Source of the DNA: an uncultured Acidobacteriota bacterium
Lineage (GTDB): Bacteria; Acidobacteriota; CAIWXX01
NCBI GenBank assembly: GCA_903916735.1
Contig: CAIWXX010000084.1
Span: 1 to 48,684 of the forward strand
DNA: 48,684 nt
Reading direction: 5' to 3'
The notes beneath the pieces were generated by a model. It made no database searches, was not told the DNA's origin, and worked only from the letters and a program-made list of their open reading frames with translations. This document shows, in pieces, positions 36,637-48,443 of this stretch. Both the position numbers and the translations under genes were made by a program. The stretch's first letter is position 1, and each line of letters begins with the position of its first letter.

Positions 36637-39125
36637 ATGGCCAAAACAAAACGTGCGCTTATTTATTGTGGATCTGCGGCGATCGTTCTTCTAGGGGTCG
36701 GTCTTGCCGGCAAACATGGCTATGAGCTCCAGAGTGGCGCGGAGCCGGGCGGGTTTGTTCGACCGCCTGTGGCCGAAGCCGACAAGAATGACAAGCCAGG
36801 CGAAGCGCAGGAATTCTATCTGAGCAAGCGTTCGCCCGACGGGAAAAGCGCGATACCAGTTGCACGCTATCTCGTCGCGCGGAAATCAATGAGAGACATG
36901 CCGCACTACTCCACCGTCTCCGCCGCGTACCTGCCATCAGATGCAGCACACGAAACGTCCTCAATGGCCGATTTCGCCTCGCCCTGGACCTACCTCGGGC
37001 CCGGCAACATCGGCGGCGCACACGTGCCCTCGTGATTGATCCCACATCTCCAAACACGATGTACGCGGCCGGAGTTGCAGGGGGGATATGGAAGACGACC
37101 AATGGGGGCGCGAAATGGACCGCCCTTGACGATATGCTCCCCAATCTTGCTGTCTGCTCACTGGCCATGGATCCCAAGAATTCGAAAATACTGATCGCGG
37201 GCACCGGCGAGGGGTATTTCAATGGAGACGGTGTCAGAGGCGCAGGCATGTTCAAGACGACGGACGAAGGCTTGCATTGGGCACTCCTGCCGTCAACACA
37301 AAACTCGGACTTTTATTATGTCAACGATATCATCATCAGCCCGAACGACTCGCAACGCTTCTATGCCGCTACTGGTACCGGTGTCTGGCGATCCACGGAT
37401 GGAGGGTCGATCTGGAGTCGTGTTCTTCCAACGAAAGTGTACGGCGGTTGTCTCGATCTCGCAATTCGAACCGATCAATCGACCGACTATCTTTTTGCAT
37501 CATGTGGAACATTCCAGCAGGCGACCATTTATCGCAACACGGATGCCGGCAGAGCAGGATCATGGAGCTCGGTTTTCACCGATCCGGATATGGGGCGCAC
37601 ATCATTGGCGATTGCTCCTTCGAATCAAGCGGTCATTTATGCGCTTTCGGCGAGTAACGCCGATGACGATTACCAATACGGACTCCTCGCCGTTTTTCGT
37701 TCAACCAGCAGCGGCGATTCCGGGAGTTGGAAGACGATGGTGAGGAACACTGACAAGACCAGGCTCAATACCGTTCTGCTGACCAACCCCGTTTACGCAT
37801 TTTACAAGGAATGCGGTTGGGGATCTGAGGAGTACTATTACAATCAAGGATGGTATGACAACGTGATCGCCGTCGATCCGAAAGATCCCAATCGTGTCTG
37901 GGCCGGCGGGATTGATCTTTTCAGATCGGATGATGGCGGAGCGAATTGGGGCCTGGCTTCGTATTGGTGGCTGGATCCCGATCGACGCTACAACCATGCG
38001 GATCATCACGCCATTGTTTTCCATCCGGGCTATAAAGGTGCAAGCAACAAGGTGATGTTTATTGGAAACGACGGTGGAGTCTTCAAGACCTTGAATGCCC
38101 ATGCCGCAACAGCGAAAGGCACAGCAGCTCCGTGCGCGGCCCATGGAGGCTTCGCCTGGATCAACCTCAATAACAATTACGGTGTGACTCAGTTTTACCA
38201 CGGCACAGCCTATCCTGGAAGAGGAACATATTTCGGGGGAACTTAAGATAACGGTACGGTCGGCGGCCAAACCAGCTCCGGTCCCAACAGATGGACCACA
38301 CTCATGGGTGGAGATGGGGGCTTTGTCGCGGTTGATCCGACGAATACCAGCACTTTGTACGCCGAGTACACCGGACTCTCCCTCCAGAGATCAATCAACG
38401 GTGGAAACGATTTCTCAAGTGCCACAACAGGAATAACCGAGCCATCCTATGGCTTCCTTTTCATCACACCCTACGTGATGGATCCAAATAACTCTCAGCG
38501 ACTCTGGATCGGGGGGAGGTATCTCTGAAGGACGACCAATGGAGCTCAGAGTTGGACCAAAGCCAGTGCGGTTTTCTCCGGGAGCACGTATTCAGACCTC
38601 AGCGCCGTTTCCGTCGCCCTGGCCGACTCGAACTATGTCCTCGCCGGCACCTCCGAGGGCTACATCCATCGCACGAACATCGGACTGACGACCAAGAGCA
38701 CGACGAAATGGGCATCGACACGGCCGGCTCACGGCTACATCTCTTCATGTGCCTTCGATCCGAGCGATAAGAACATAGCCTATGCAACCTACTCGACATT
38801 CGGCGTCAAACATGTCTGGAAGAGCACCAACGCAGGGGCCACCTGGAAATCAATCGATGGATCCGGCAACACCGGGATTCCCGATATCCCCGTTTTCTCG
38901 ATTGTGGTGAATCCCAATAACAGATCGACTCTTTACATCGCCACTGATCTGGGCGTGTTCATCAGCATCGACGGTGGCAATACATGGGCCGTGGAGAACA
39001 CCGGGTTTGCAAATGTCAGCACCGAGGCGCTTTCGATTGGTGATGACAAAGGCGTGCCGGCTGTGTTCGCATTCACTCACGGCCGCGGCGCATGGCGACT
39101 CGCCTTATCCGCCCGCTCGCGTTAG
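36637..39125 (+). pseudogene. BNR/sortilin-type beta-propeller gene broken by one frameshift and two stops
   Basis: The start is good (CAGGAG, then ATG; signal/anchor RALIYCGSAAIVLLGVGLAG). The frame breaks near 37017: WTYLGPGNIGG continues as RTRALVIDPTSPNTMYAAG only if one C is restored. The second frame has repeated blades (GGIWKTTNGGAKW, GVWRSTDGGSIW) until TAA at 38244-38246, where GGT-stop-DNGTVGG should be GGTQDNGT (CAA to TAA). It continues open to TGA at 38526-38528, where GGRYL-stop-RTTNGA should be GGRYLWRTTNGA (TGG to TGA). After that the same frame is open to 39125 (TLYIATDLGVFISIDGGNTW). Repaired, it would encode about 829 residues. Three independent lesions argue for a pseudogene, though assembly errors cannot be excluded. 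Confidence 0.85.
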
Positions 39126-43050: not shown

Positions 43051-45738
43051 ATGATTCTTGCCCGATTGTTCGACGCAATTCTTCTTGCAGGACTATCCGT
43101 TACTCTCGTCGCCGGCGATCAGCCTAAGCCCCACTCCGAAAAGCCTTCAACCGTGCCCATCGTGGCGACAGCCCCGCGCATTGAGGCGGTCATGCTCAAG
43201 GCCCTGAAGGCCCGCAGCATTGGGCCGGCGCTGATGAGCGGCCGGGTGTCTGACATCGCCATCGATCCTCAAACACCGTCCACATTTTATGTCGCGCTGG
43301 GGACCGGCGGTGTCATGAAAACAACCGATAATGGATGGACGTTCCAGGCCATCTTTGAGAAGGAAGCAGTAGCGGCAGTCGGAGCAATCGCAATCTCGCC
43401 CTCTGACCCCAAGATACTGTGGGTTGGAACCGGAGAGGCCAATGACCGGAATAGCTCAAGTTGGGGCAATGGTGTTTATCGCTCGACGGATGGTGGATCA
43501 TCATGGACAAACACAGGACTATCCGACAGCAAAACCATTGCACGTATCGTCGTGCATCCCACAGATCCAAATACGGCATGGGCGGCAGTCGTGGGGGATT
43601 TGTGGGGCCCGAGTCCCAATCGAGGCCTTTTCAAAACAACTGATGGCGGCAAGACATGGAAAGCAGTTCTTCATGCACCTGCTCCTTATTCCAATCGAGT
43701 AGGCTGCGGGGAAGTGGTTTTGGATCCTAGCGATCCCAACGTGCTCTATGCGGCGCTTTATGCACGGCAGCGCACGCCCTGGTCTTTCGTCGCAGGCCCC
43801 GATGAGACGGATGGGAAAGATCTTGGCGGCATTTTCAAAACAACTGATGGCGGAGCGACATGGAAGAAACTAGAAAAGGGACTCCCTGCAAAAACCGGCC
43901 GCATCGGATTGGATATTTTTCGGAAAAATTCCAAGATCGTCTATGCGATCGTGCAGTCGGACGAAGGCGGACAGAGCGGGATCGATGAGATACGCAGCAA
44001 GCGAGGTGGGGTCTTCCGTTCTGATGATGGCGGAGAAACATGGACACACATGAACCCACTCAACCCGCGCCCTTTCTACTTCAGCCAGATCCGAGTGGAT
44101 CCCGCGAACGACCAGCGCATTTATCTGCTCGGATATGCCTTGCATGTTTCGGAAGATGGTGGCACATACTTCCGCGAGGACCATTTTGAGAAAGTTCATC
44201 CGGACTGCCACGCCTTTGCCATCGATACGCACGACCCAAAGCGGGTCATCCTTGGTACTGATGGCGGAGCCTATGTCAGCTACGAAGCTGGGAAATCATG
44301 GGCGCTTTTGAATAATTTTGCGGGTGGCGAGTATTACCGCATCGCTGTCGACATGAGCCGACCCTATCGAATCGCAGGCGGATTGCAGGACAACACGAAT
44401 TGGGTCGGCCCAAGTGCAACTCGATCCAAGGATGGCATCATGAATTGCCACTGGACCAACATCCTCGGCGGCGATGGGTTTTATTGCGTATTCGATGAAG
44501 AAAATCCCAACATACTTTATGCGGAATCGCAGGGGGGTGAAGTCCATCGCCTGAATCTGGAGAACGGCGAACAGAAGAGCCTGCAGCCCCAGCCGGCAGA
44601 AGGCCAGCAGCGTTTTCGTTTTCATTGGAATTCGCCTCTCATCCCGAGCCTTCACCACAAGGGGACGATGTATCTGGCCGGAAATCATGTTTTCGAGCTC
44701 ACAAACCATGGCGATGAATGGAGCATGATCAGCCCGGATCTGACGATGCAGGAGCCGGTCAAAATTGACTCGGTCGGAAGCGGTGCAGAAAATTACGGAG
44801 TTGTGTACACGCTTGCCGAATCCCCAATCAAAGCCGATTTGCTCTGGGCCGGAACCGACGACGGCAAACTCTGGGTCAGAGATGGCGAGACGTGGATTGA
44901 TCTCACGACCAATCTCCCCGCGGCTGCAAAAGGGCAGTGGATGAGTCGCATTGAAGCAAGCCATTACGACGCGATGGTCGCATACCTCGCCGTCGACGCT
45001 CATCGCACAGGAAACTATGCGCCACTCGTCTATCGCACGGCTGATCGAGGGAAGACGTGGCAGAGCATCACATCGGACCTCCCGCAAGACGGCCCCGCCA
45101 AGGTCATCCGGGAAGACCTGAAGAACCAGAACCTGCTTTTTCTGGGCACCGAGTTCAGGCTGTGGGCCAGTTTTGATCGCGGCGGCCATTGGATCACGTT
45201 CGGCGATCTGCCGACTGTCGCCGTCGACGACATCGTGATCCACCCACGCGATCTGGATCTTGTGGTTGCTACTCATGGCAGGAGCCTCTATATCCTCGAT
45301 GACATCAGGCCACTTGAGGAACTAACGCCGGAAACGGGTGCGAAAGAAGCTCACCTCTTTTCTCTCCGACCGGCCTTCGGAATCTATCAGATTCCTGACT
45401 GGGTTGATTCGAGTGGAAATGCCGTTTTTCGAGGGGCCAATCCGCCGGAAGGCGCAATCATCAACTACTACGTGAGAGAATACACAGGCGACCCAGTGAA
45501 TATCTCCATCACAAACCCCAAGGGTCAGCCGGTGGCGAAAATCACCGCGCCCGGCACGCCTGGGATCAATCGTGTCATATGGGATCTCAAGCCGGGGAAG
45601 GATTTCCTGATCGAGTATGGCGGAGAAGGTTCCAAATTCGTTCGCCCGGGCGACTATGACATCACCTTGACATACGGCAAAGTGAAACAGACACAGAAGT
45701 TGCATGTCGAGATTGCGCAGGGATTGGAGACGCGCTGA
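43051..45738 (+). CDS. sortilin/BNR-type beta-propeller protein (secreted, glycosyl-hydrolase-like)
   Basis: 895 residues and intact. A weak signal peptide (MILARLFDAILLAGLSVTLVAG) starts it. Many blades of the type GGVMKTTDNGWTFQAI, GVYRSTDGGSSWTN, GLFKTTDGGKTWKAV and GVFRSDDGGETWTHM follow, with Asp-box (SxDGGxTW) turns, giving a ten-bladed sortilin-like propeller. GGLQDNTNWVGPS is a family signature. The last ~130 residues have a separate beta-sandwich (YYVREYTGDPVNISITNPKG). Members are annotated as glycosyl hydrolases, but catalysis is unproven. It is the likely intact counterpart of the pseudogene at 36637. CAGGAG precedes the ATG. Confidence 0.92.
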   Translation: MILARLFDAILLAGLSVTLVAGDQPKPHSEKPSTVPIVATAPRIEAVMLKALKARSIGPALMSGRVSDIAIDPQTPSTFYVALGTGGVMKTTDNGWTFQAIFEKEAVAAVGAIAISPSDPKILWVGTGEANDRNSSSWGNGVYRSTDGGSSWTNTGLSDSKTIARIVVHPTDPNTAWAAVVGDLWGPSPNRGLFKTTDGGKTWKAVLHAPAPYSNRVGCGEVVLDPSDPNVLYAALYARQRTPWSFVAGPDETDGKDLGGIFKTTDGGATWKKLEKGLPAKTGRIGLDIFRKNSKIVYAIVQSDEGGQSGIDEIRSKRGGVFRSDDGGETWTHMNPLNPRPFYFSQIRVDPANDQRIYLLGYALHVSEDGGTYFREDHFEKVHPDCHAFAIDTHDPKRVILGTDGGAYVSYEAGKSWALLNNFAGGEYYRIAVDMSRPYRIAGGLQDNTNWVGPSATRSKDGIMNCHWTNILGGDGFYCVFDEENPNILYAESQGGEVHRLNLENGEQKSLQPQPAEGQQRFRFHWNSPLIPSLHHKGTMYLAGNHVFELTNHGDEWSMISPDLTMQEPVKIDSVGSGAENYGVVYTLAESPIKADLLWAGTDDGKLWVRDGETWIDLTTNLPAAAKGQWMSRIEASHYDAMVAYLAVDAHRTGNYAPLVYRTADRGKTWQSITSDLPQDGPAKVIREDLKNQNLLFLGTEFRLWASFDRGGHWITFGDLPTVAVDDIVIHPRDLDLVVATHGRSLYILDDIRPLEELTPETGAKEAHLFSLRPAFGIYQIPDWVDSSGNAVFRGANPPEGAIINYYVREYTGDPVNISITNPKGQPVAKITAPGTPGINRVIWDLKPGKDFLIEYGGEGSKFVRPGDYDITLTYGKVKQTQKLHVEIAQGLETR

Positions 45739-46641: not shown

Positions 46642-46670
46642 AAAGCGGATCGTCGGCAAGGAGGACAGAG

Positions 46671-48443
46671 ATGTTTCGCAAAGAGGGCTTAATCCTGATC
46701 ATGATCACACTGGTTTACGCGGCCTCCTGTTCGAAAATGCAGAAGTCGCCGACAGGTCTGGCGGCCGGGCTGGGCGCCAACTCGAGCGACCTCATCGCTT
46801 CAGGCGATCTGCCTCCCTATAACGAAAATCCGGTTGCACAATCGGCTCAGCCACTCAAGACATCCCCTCCCGCAGCAGCCAACATCCATGGAACATTCAG
46901 CGTGCAGGATTTCATGGGTTGGATGCCTGAGCTCAACCACACACACGAATCCGCCGCGGGGTTTCGAAAATACCTTGCTCGCTGGTATGCTCCCAATTTC
47001 GTCTATCGCGATACCGGCGTTGGCGCATGGGCCTTCTTGGACGATCCCAATGGCGATGAAGATACCTGGGAGAGCAAGGGAGTCGAACGCGGAGTTGATG
47101 CGGTGCTCGTCGCCTACCACTCGAGTCACGGGAATATGCGTGCCGATGGGATCTACATGACATGGATGGGCACGAATATCACCGGCAAAGGGTGGTCGGT
47201 TCGTTCCGATCATATGGCACTCGGCGGGGGTTACGACAAGCCCGATTCCGAACGCCTCCGATATATGTTTTGGGATACGTGCTACGGCCTCCGATTCAGA
47301 AACGGACAGAATCCGATGCGGACATGGGCGCCTCATGCCAAGGGCATTCGGATGATCTTCGGCTACGAATCTCCATCCTTGGACAGTCCGAACTACGGGC
47401 AATTTTTTTGGGAAGAATGGAACAAGAACAAGAGCCTGTCGACGGCGTTTCTTGACGCGAGCTGGCGGATTTGCCGGCAGCAGACCCCGGTTGTTCTGGC
47501 TTTCGGGGCGACCGACAACGAAGCGTCGGCCCGGCGTGACGGCGAACGGCTCTTATTTTCCGAAGGCGCGTCGTCACAATGCGGAGCATGGCGCTGGTAT
47601 TCAAGTGAGGCAGGCAGTGCTGCCTCACAACAACAGGCAGGTGCCGCCCTTATGCCGACGCACGCGAAAATTTTCGACGTCGCCGCTGATGGCAATTCCG
47701 ACACCGAAGTCGAACGGATTGCGCAGTCCGTCGGAATCATGGTTGTGAATCCGAGCGCCGTTGAAGCTCGCCCATTCGGTATGCGTTCCATAAGGACGAA
47801 GGGACTGACGCTGACCGTCGGTCGCGATGGCAGCTACGAACTGGCACTCACCACCAAGCTGAAACGAACGGCTTCGGCATCAGCCGTTGCGAATGATGCT
47901 GAGCTGATCCAAAAGGCCAAAGATATCATCTCAGAATTCGATCTGGCTCAGGGCAGCGACTATCAATTCTCTGTGATGCGTTTCACGAATGTGAGCTCAG
48001 GGACAGTGGCGGCGCCGTCAGGGAACCCGGTTGTCGTCGAGAAGACCGCGATTTTCGACCAGATTGTCAATGGTCTCCCCTTCATCGATCCGGATGCGGG
48101 GCATCTGGAGATCACGTTTGACGCACAAACGGGCGAAGCGAAAAAGTTCCGCAACACCATTCATCGAATCCGGGATAATCCGACCCGGATGGCAAGCGCG
48201 TCGGCACCAGCCTTGACGATTGAACAGGCCAGGGATGCGGCGCTTCAAACAACTGATCAGACACCCTCTCCCGGTGAGCCGTCACTGGACGCAGCGTATG
48301 AAATCAAACATGAAAACGAATCAACGGGATACTACATTTTGGATGGCAAAGCCATCCCTGTTTACCGAGCCTACATAACAAGCAGGAAATTTCCTGAAGC
48401 GCGCCCGCGCGAAGTGCTCATCCCGCTGGCAAAAGCAGAATGA
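46671..48443 (+). CDS. secreted DUF6345 lipoprotein, possible clan CD cysteine peptidase
   Basis: 590 residues. A lipoprotein-like signal ends VYAASC, putting the protein at the outer face of a membrane. A DUF6345 domain covers ~80-310. In it, AVLVAYHSSHG (His ~153) and RYMFWDTCYG (Cys ~204) look like the hydrophobic-strand-HG and DxC blocks of caspase/gingipain-type peptidases, followed by FFWEEWNKNKSLSTAF as in their third strand. The C-terminal part (VMRFTNVSSGTVAAPSGNP, VEKTAIFDQIVNGLPF) is PepSY-like. The peptidase idea is an inference; the family has no proven activity. CAAGGAGG precedes the ATG at 46671. Confidence 0.8.
   Translation: MFRKEGLILIMITLVYAASCSKMQKSPTGLAAGLGANSSDLIASGDLPPYNENPVAQSAQPLKTSPPAAANIHGTFSVQDFMGWMPELNHTHESAAGFRKYLARWYAPNFVYRDTGVGAWAFLDDPNGDEDTWESKGVERGVDAVLVAYHSSHGNMRADGIYMTWMGTNITGKGWSVRSDHMALGGGYDKPDSERLRYMFWDTCYGLRFRNGQNPMRTWAPHAKGIRMIFGYESPSLDSPNYGQFFWEEWNKNKSLSTAFLDASWRICRQQTPVVLAFGATDNEASARRDGERLLFSEGASSQCGAWRWYSSEAGSAASQQQAGAALMPTHAKIFDVAADGNSDTEVERIAQSVGIMVVNPSAVEARPFGMRSIRTKGLTLTVGRDGSYELALTTKLKRTASASAVANDAELIQKAKDIISEFDLAQGSDYQFSVMRFTNVSSGTVAAPSGNPVVVEKTAIFDQIVNGLPFIDPDAGHLEITFDAQTGEAKKFRNTIHRIRDNPTRMASASAPALTIEQARDAALQTTDQTPSPGEPSLDAAYEIKHENESTGYYILDGKAIPVYRAYITSRKFPEARPREVLIPLAKAE

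Follow-up and report, generated by a model that had tools for sequence, protein, structure and literature searches.

What does a protein do whose sole recognizable part is a domain of unknown function, and could it be a peptidase? This question is raised by the DUF6345 gene at the end of the window, as we call the whole 48,684-nucleotide stretch of DNA from an uncultured Acidobacteriota bacterium that was analysed here. A preliminary description, made from the sequence of this stretch, had read the product as a candidate clan CD cysteine peptidase on the basis of a histidine and a cysteine in two short motifs. The open reading frame is real and has a good ribosome-binding site (Table 1). DUF6345 (PF19872) is the sole Pfam domain detected in its product P0001, covering residues 78–292 with an E-value of 1.6e-10 and a score of 41.3 bits (cut-off 26.9), and a search of P0001 against NCBIfam and the PDB sequences gave no useful match. 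Residues 17–20 read AASC, which by eye is a plausible, non-canonical lipobox. Upstream lies a divergent gene for a SpoIIM-like membrane protein (sub-threshold in Pfam), and as the contig ends 241 bases beyond the DUF6345 gene, the downstream context is unreadable. The window also codes for two Sortilin/Vps10-like proteins (43051–45735 and 37059–38243), and its genome contains five matches to CHAT and, at E 0.001, none to C14 or C25.

Table 1. Features of the DUF6345 gene and its product, in positions of the window.
Feature	Position	Strand	Basis
CDS, DUF6345 protein P0001	46671..48443	+	590 aa ORF and Pfam
Shine-Dalgarno-like AGGAGG ahead of ATG 46671	46659..46664	+	Direct sequence reading
N-terminal hydrophobic signal, possible non-canonical lipobox AAS-C20	46671..46730	+	Sequence inspection
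DUF6345 domain, predicted clan CD catalytic domain	46902..47549	+	Pfam, models, fold comparison, C14 profile
His153, predicted catalytic His, follows strand 147-150	47127..47129	+	Conservation, position
Asp202, Cys204 minus 2, candidate S1 residue favouring Arg/Lys	47274..47276	+	PmC11 Asp177/Cys179 equivalence
Cys204, predicted nucleophile, follows strand 198-201	47280..47282	+	Conservation, position
C-terminal YycH/YycI/thermolysin-propeptide-like domain, proposed regulator	47646..48440	+	VIA-align, Foldseek, weak FTP/YPEB Pfam in relatives

The occurrence of DUF6345 is patchy and spans Bacteria and Archaea. A whole-genome profile search found PF19872 in 9 of 396 genomes of the window's phylum; the domain was present in 31 of 246 genomes from the phylum to which a MAG titled Methanotrichaceae archaeon belongs, in 11 of 346 genomes of the Amycolatopsis phylum (9 above the cut-off) and in 4 of 244 genomes of the Microcystis phylum. 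Methanosarcina acetivorans was the only carrier among 14 named control genomes. The architecture of the window protein recurs in records of Blastocatellia, Methylobacter, Methyloglobulus, Cytophagales, Methanotrichaceae, Microcystis, Amycolatopsis, Thalassocella and Bacteroidota, as well as on Paracoccus plasmids. Relatives in genome contigs were found with a two-protein alignment, a scan with the single protein having returned none, and nine divergent DUF6345 domains, once aligned, proved too variable for pattern scans. No DUF6345 relative was found in the viral contigs and phage records searched. An archaeal-phylum genome (G617, contig C1, 1421677–1461319) has four DUF6345 matches, three of them about 10 kb apart, suggesting a repeated array; a Blastocatellia DUF6345 protein (L031:3455-5584) has a region resembling fascin in its N-terminal part (Pfam hits to Fascin, FRG1 and DUF7910); and in the copy of a Porphyromonas sp. 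MAG (L032) the catalytic half is missing from the open frame, so that this copy is probably a remnant.

Within the window protein, His153 is part of the motif YHSSHG and Cys204 of the motif FWDTC. The order of the two residues, their distance of 51 residues and the predicted strand ahead of each (Table 1) are as the preliminary description had read them. A family profile was built from the first nine aligned domains, in which Asp143, His153, Cys204, Gly225 and Gly231 (P0001 numbering) are the invariant columns, and it aligned 64 of the 68 fetched DUF6345 loci. The predicted catalytic positions hold His in 60/60 filled rows and Cys in 63/63; rows with gaps (L032, L061, L080, L081) come from fragmentary copies, from a stop within the frame or from an alignment that was split, and in L080 an FTGHG sits just beyond the aligned part. 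The profile did not align L065, L067, L069 and L071, but these four loci, too, have the xGHG and xxC motifs when inspected by eye. A 60% identity filter kept 39 of 60 rows, the four loci with gaps having been left out beforehand, and among the 185 occupied columns of these 39 non-redundant domains H153 and C204 are the only ones conserved at 100%, the next being D143 (94.7%) and G231 (92.3%). Conservation of exactly these two residues across DUF6345 was the test set beforehand, and it came out in favor of the proposal in every filled row, including 39/39 of the non-redundant set; because both residues had been named in advance, chance is a poor explanation for their conservation. The distance between them varies from 34 to 60 residues across the family, with a median of 44. 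Clan CD peptidases have a glycine beside the catalytic His; the residue after the His is Gly154 in the window protein, but across the family it is G in 49, A in 7, S in 3 and T in 1 of 60 rows, a variation that weighs against the clan CD reading. Cysteine and histidine are also common metal ligands, and the pair might be metal-binding or structural, with any similarity to clan CD being coincidental; a further His close by (HSGHG), present in many window-like members, would suit such a role, yet this second His is not conserved, with H in 24 of the 60 filled rows.

To place the family, the DUF6345 profile (55 of 64 rows kept, nine left out) was compared with profiles of C14, C25, CHAT and DJ-1 domains made from related genomes. 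For the C25 set 4 of 30 loci were dropped, for the C14 set 4 of 28 and then three more without the motifs, and for the CHAT set 8 of 30, partly through an HG requirement, while the DJ-1 set kept 29. The C14 set is thereby filtered for a GHG-type and a Cys motif, and HG filtering of the C14 and CHAT sets could raise the scores slightly, a composition that the shuffles retain. Against C14, DUF6345 scored 54.6 (probability 94.4%, E 8.7e-8); the reversed profile scored 14.8, and none of 200 column shuffles reached the observed value (maximum 17.2). Scores were 24.9 against C25 (shuffle maximum 18.7) and 20.4 against CHAT (maximum of 100 shuffles 19.7). DJ-1, a different fold with a catalytic Cys, gave 8.9, a value equalled or bettered by 95 of 200 shuffles, i.e. 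no signal. By the same method the accepted families score 33.7 (C14–C25), 44.2 (C14–CHAT) and 31.5 (C25–CHAT) with each other, and the match between DUF6345 and C14 is stronger than those of the C14, C25 and CHAT profiles among themselves. The xGHG and xxC motifs of DUF6345 were aligned onto the matching motifs of all three families, and in the alignment with C14, which covers only about 120 columns, GHG/SGHG and DAC/DTC are in register. The Pfam model for C14 (PF00656) gave no match in 11 members at E 1 or in 9 members at E 0.5, nor did that for C25 (PF01364) in the window protein, the DUF6345 members scanned or the window's own genome. The gingipains (C25) were considered as the nearest family and are ruled out by the profile scores, 24.9 versus 54.6 for C14; of the two likenesses put forward earlier, to caspases and to gingipains, the profiles favor that to C14, the caspases and metacaspases. 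A C14 match so far above the shuffles, with the motifs in register, together with structural match lists that agree with clan CD (see below), makes a purely metal-binding or structural role of the His and Cys very improbable.

Two structural models were compared with known folds, and both are of moderate confidence. The full-length model, made with 11 sequences, has a pTM of 0.74 and a mean pLDDT of 65.9; the domain-only model has a pTM of 0.66 and a pLDDT of 58.0, with values under 50 for construct residues 31–82 (ending at the His) and 95–123. VIA-align matched the full model to legumain (Z 9.0, 185 residues, 3.9 Å), clostripain (8.6), caspase-9 (8.5), a Bacteroides C11 enzyme (8.5), MALT1 (8.1) and CHAT proteins (up to 5.9), and these clan CD structures superpose mostly on its N-terminal half. 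For the domain-only model, ranks 1–45 were taken by CHAT/Csx29-type proteins, C11, caspases, RgpB, separase, MALT1, the cysteine peptidase domains of toxins and DdvA, and the first clearly unrelated entry was a ribokinase at rank 46 (Z 2.5). Many of the Z values are under 8, a range that the tool flags as possible background, and the absence of a family from these lists does not exclude that family. Foldseek alone gave no significant clan CD match for the catalytic half, its best hits being MALT1 (E 0.056, full model) and a C11 enzyme (E 0.49, domain-only model). In the predicted structure His153 comes just after core strand 3 and Cys204 just after core strand 4. Clan CD is characterized by a dyad placed where these two strands end on their C-terminal side (McLuskey and Mottram, PMC4357240), and the modeled dyad is predicted to occupy this very place. 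The VIA-align lists, in which clan CD families dominate, point to the caspase-like fold of the clan, for which a six-stranded sheet is expected, and, within the confidence of the models, bear out the comparison with caspase and gingipain folds that the preliminary description had called for.

The DdvA entry is an observation in its own right: residues 801–991 of this anti-sigma factor (PDB 8rw5/8rot) match with Z 8.2 for the full and 6.5 for the domain-only model, which hints at a caspase-like domain in that protein. It also bears on whether a clan CD fold might here have a non-proteolytic job, such as the binding of a ligand, or catalysis of the transferase or amidase type by the same Cys/His pair, since this C-terminal part of DdvA belongs to an anti-sigma factor and not to a peptidase, and the peptidase activity of DUF6345 is predicted only. 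Full conservation of the dyad over Bacteria and Archaea nevertheless argues for catalysis, and a peptidase-propeptide-like domain is fused to DUF6345 on either side. We therefore regard a non-proteolytic job as unlikely and prefer a peptidase.

This fused domain forms the tail of the window protein (residues about 326–590). In VIA-align it matched YycH (Z 12.7), YycI (11.3) and the vibriolysin propeptide (6.5), and Foldseek matched it to YycI with an E-value of 7.7e-5. Pfam gave no match to the tail in P0001 itself, and weak hits among 11 relatives, to FTP in two and to YPEB-PepSY in one. Three proteins (L005, L072 and L085) have DUF6345 at the C-terminus, and their N-terminal regions were matched by a profile of 15 tails with a score of 47.0 over 244 columns, a value reached by none of 150 shuffles (maximum 19.1); singly the three match the tail weakly, so that the relation on either side depends on the profile. 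The presence of a tail-type partner on either side of DUF6345 suggests a functional link. YycH and YycI are regulators of a sensor kinase, and their Z values exceed that of the vibriolysin propeptide, as would be expected if the tail of a clan CD peptidase served as a sensor or docking domain rather than as an inhibitor, a reading that is a rival to no more than the final step of the mechanism proposed below. The weak FTP hits (2/11 relatives) and the fusion on both sides fit a propeptide-like role as well, and we give a sensor or docking tail a real chance, somewhat short of even. The tail is suggested to be a built-in inhibitor or chaperone; propeptide-like control is preferred, with sensing as its rival.

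Caspase-7 has Gln184 two residues ahead of Cys186, and PmC11 has Asp177 ahead of Cys179 (PMC4357240, PMC4850288), so the Cys-2 position helps to choose P1. Across DUF6345 this position is D in 19, H in 14, S in 12 and A in 6 of 63 rows, with other residues in the remainder; because of this variation, the members are unlikely to share a single P1 preference. Among 16 window-like proteins inspected by eye, a hydrophobic signal-like N-terminus is present in six and absent in ten. All six with the hydrophobic N-terminus (the window protein, L007, L020, L021, L022 and L031) have Asp at Cys-2, and all ten without it have Ser. From this pattern two branches are predicted, which would differ in substrates and location. 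As 10/16 start without an apparent N-terminal signal, surface anchoring, which had been proposed as a trait of the family, is not a family property.

Neighboring genes at three window-like loci give modest support for the peptidase reading. A Peptidase_M6-like gene of Microcystis (L027:2227-3951) ends about 35 bases upstream of DUF6345, and L025 and L026 have an ORF that matches it in size and place; a Bacteroidota MAG (L030) has a subtilase gene upstream, and about 10 bases downstream of the gene in a Cytophagales MAG lies a small ORF (L023:5567-6043) that looks like a lipoprotein and matches chagasin (I42) below the threshold. A search for a conserved operon partner found none, and most of the flanking genes examined are unrelated to proteolysis; among the neighbors scanned or annotated in L020, L021, L022, L024, L028, L029, Paracoccus and Deinococcus, none is peptidase-related.

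The reading as a clan CD cysteine peptidase is thus supported by conservation, by structure comparison and by profile comparison with controls. We conclude that DUF6345 constitutes a clan CD family of its own, whose nearest profile is that of C14 and not that of the gingipains, and that it is probably a protein-cutting enzyme with its own regulatory domain. In the mechanism that we propose, the protein would adopt a caspase-type fold in which the third core strand leads to His153 and the fourth to Cys204, the two residues of the catalytic dyad; conservation, profile and model support this fold and dyad. By reference to other members of the clan, Cys204 would attack the peptide bond, and His153 would act as the base. 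Asp202, two residues ahead of Cys204 in the window protein, probably belongs to the lining of the S1 pocket and would favor Arg or Lys at P1. The window protein is probably exported and possibly lipid-anchored, and its YycH/YycI/propeptide-like tail probably serves as an intramolecular chaperone or inhibitor, whose effect would end upon cleavage or a signal. A caspase-type dyad peptidase with a regulatory tail is very likely the best explanation overall; its activity, P1 specificity and autoinhibition are what we infer from the evidence above. More tentative, and to our judgment possible rather than probable, is the wider picture of a new clan CD family of Bacteria and Archaea, in which a caspase-like domain is joined in either order to a YycH/PepSY-type inhibitor or sensor, and which comprises two branches, one exported and with Asp at Cys-2, the other non-exported and with Ser there.

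Our search found no literature report on DUF6345/PF19872 or their clan CD kinship; most subscription papers were outside this search, and prior recognition in a database is possible. If the proposal is true, a domain of unknown function from distant bacteria and archaea becomes a peptidase family that experiments can test and whose catalytic residues are named, the caspase superfamily gains a branch under the control of PepSY/YycH-type domains, and Microcystis and others hold a further caspase-like protein beside their known metacaspase homologues.

Compared with known systems, DUF6345 is closest to C14 (caspases, metacaspases and paracaspases), with which it shares the His-then-Cys order, the xGHG and DxC motifs, the arrangement of strands and dyad and the best profile match; it differs in lacking a Pfam C14 hit in every member scanned and in having another accessory domain. 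With C25 (gingipains) it has His and Cys in register and a structural match to RgpB (Z 6.5, domain-only), but the profile score is much weaker (24.9) and there is no Pfam C25 hit. C11 (clostripain, PmC11), which was compared by structure, matches with Z 8.6 and 7.5, and the window protein has Asp at Cys-2 as PmC11 does, whereas the C-terminal domain of C11 is unlike that of DUF6345. CHAT proteins, including Csx29/Craspase, provide the top domain-only match (8tl0, Z 9.2) and have His and Cys in register, but their profile score of 20.4 barely exceeds the shuffle maximum of 19.7. Finally, YycH/YycI and the FTP/PepSY propeptide domains share the fold of the C-terminal domain of the DUF6345 protein; in the window protein this domain has no Pfam match and differs from them in being fused to a clan CD-like domain.
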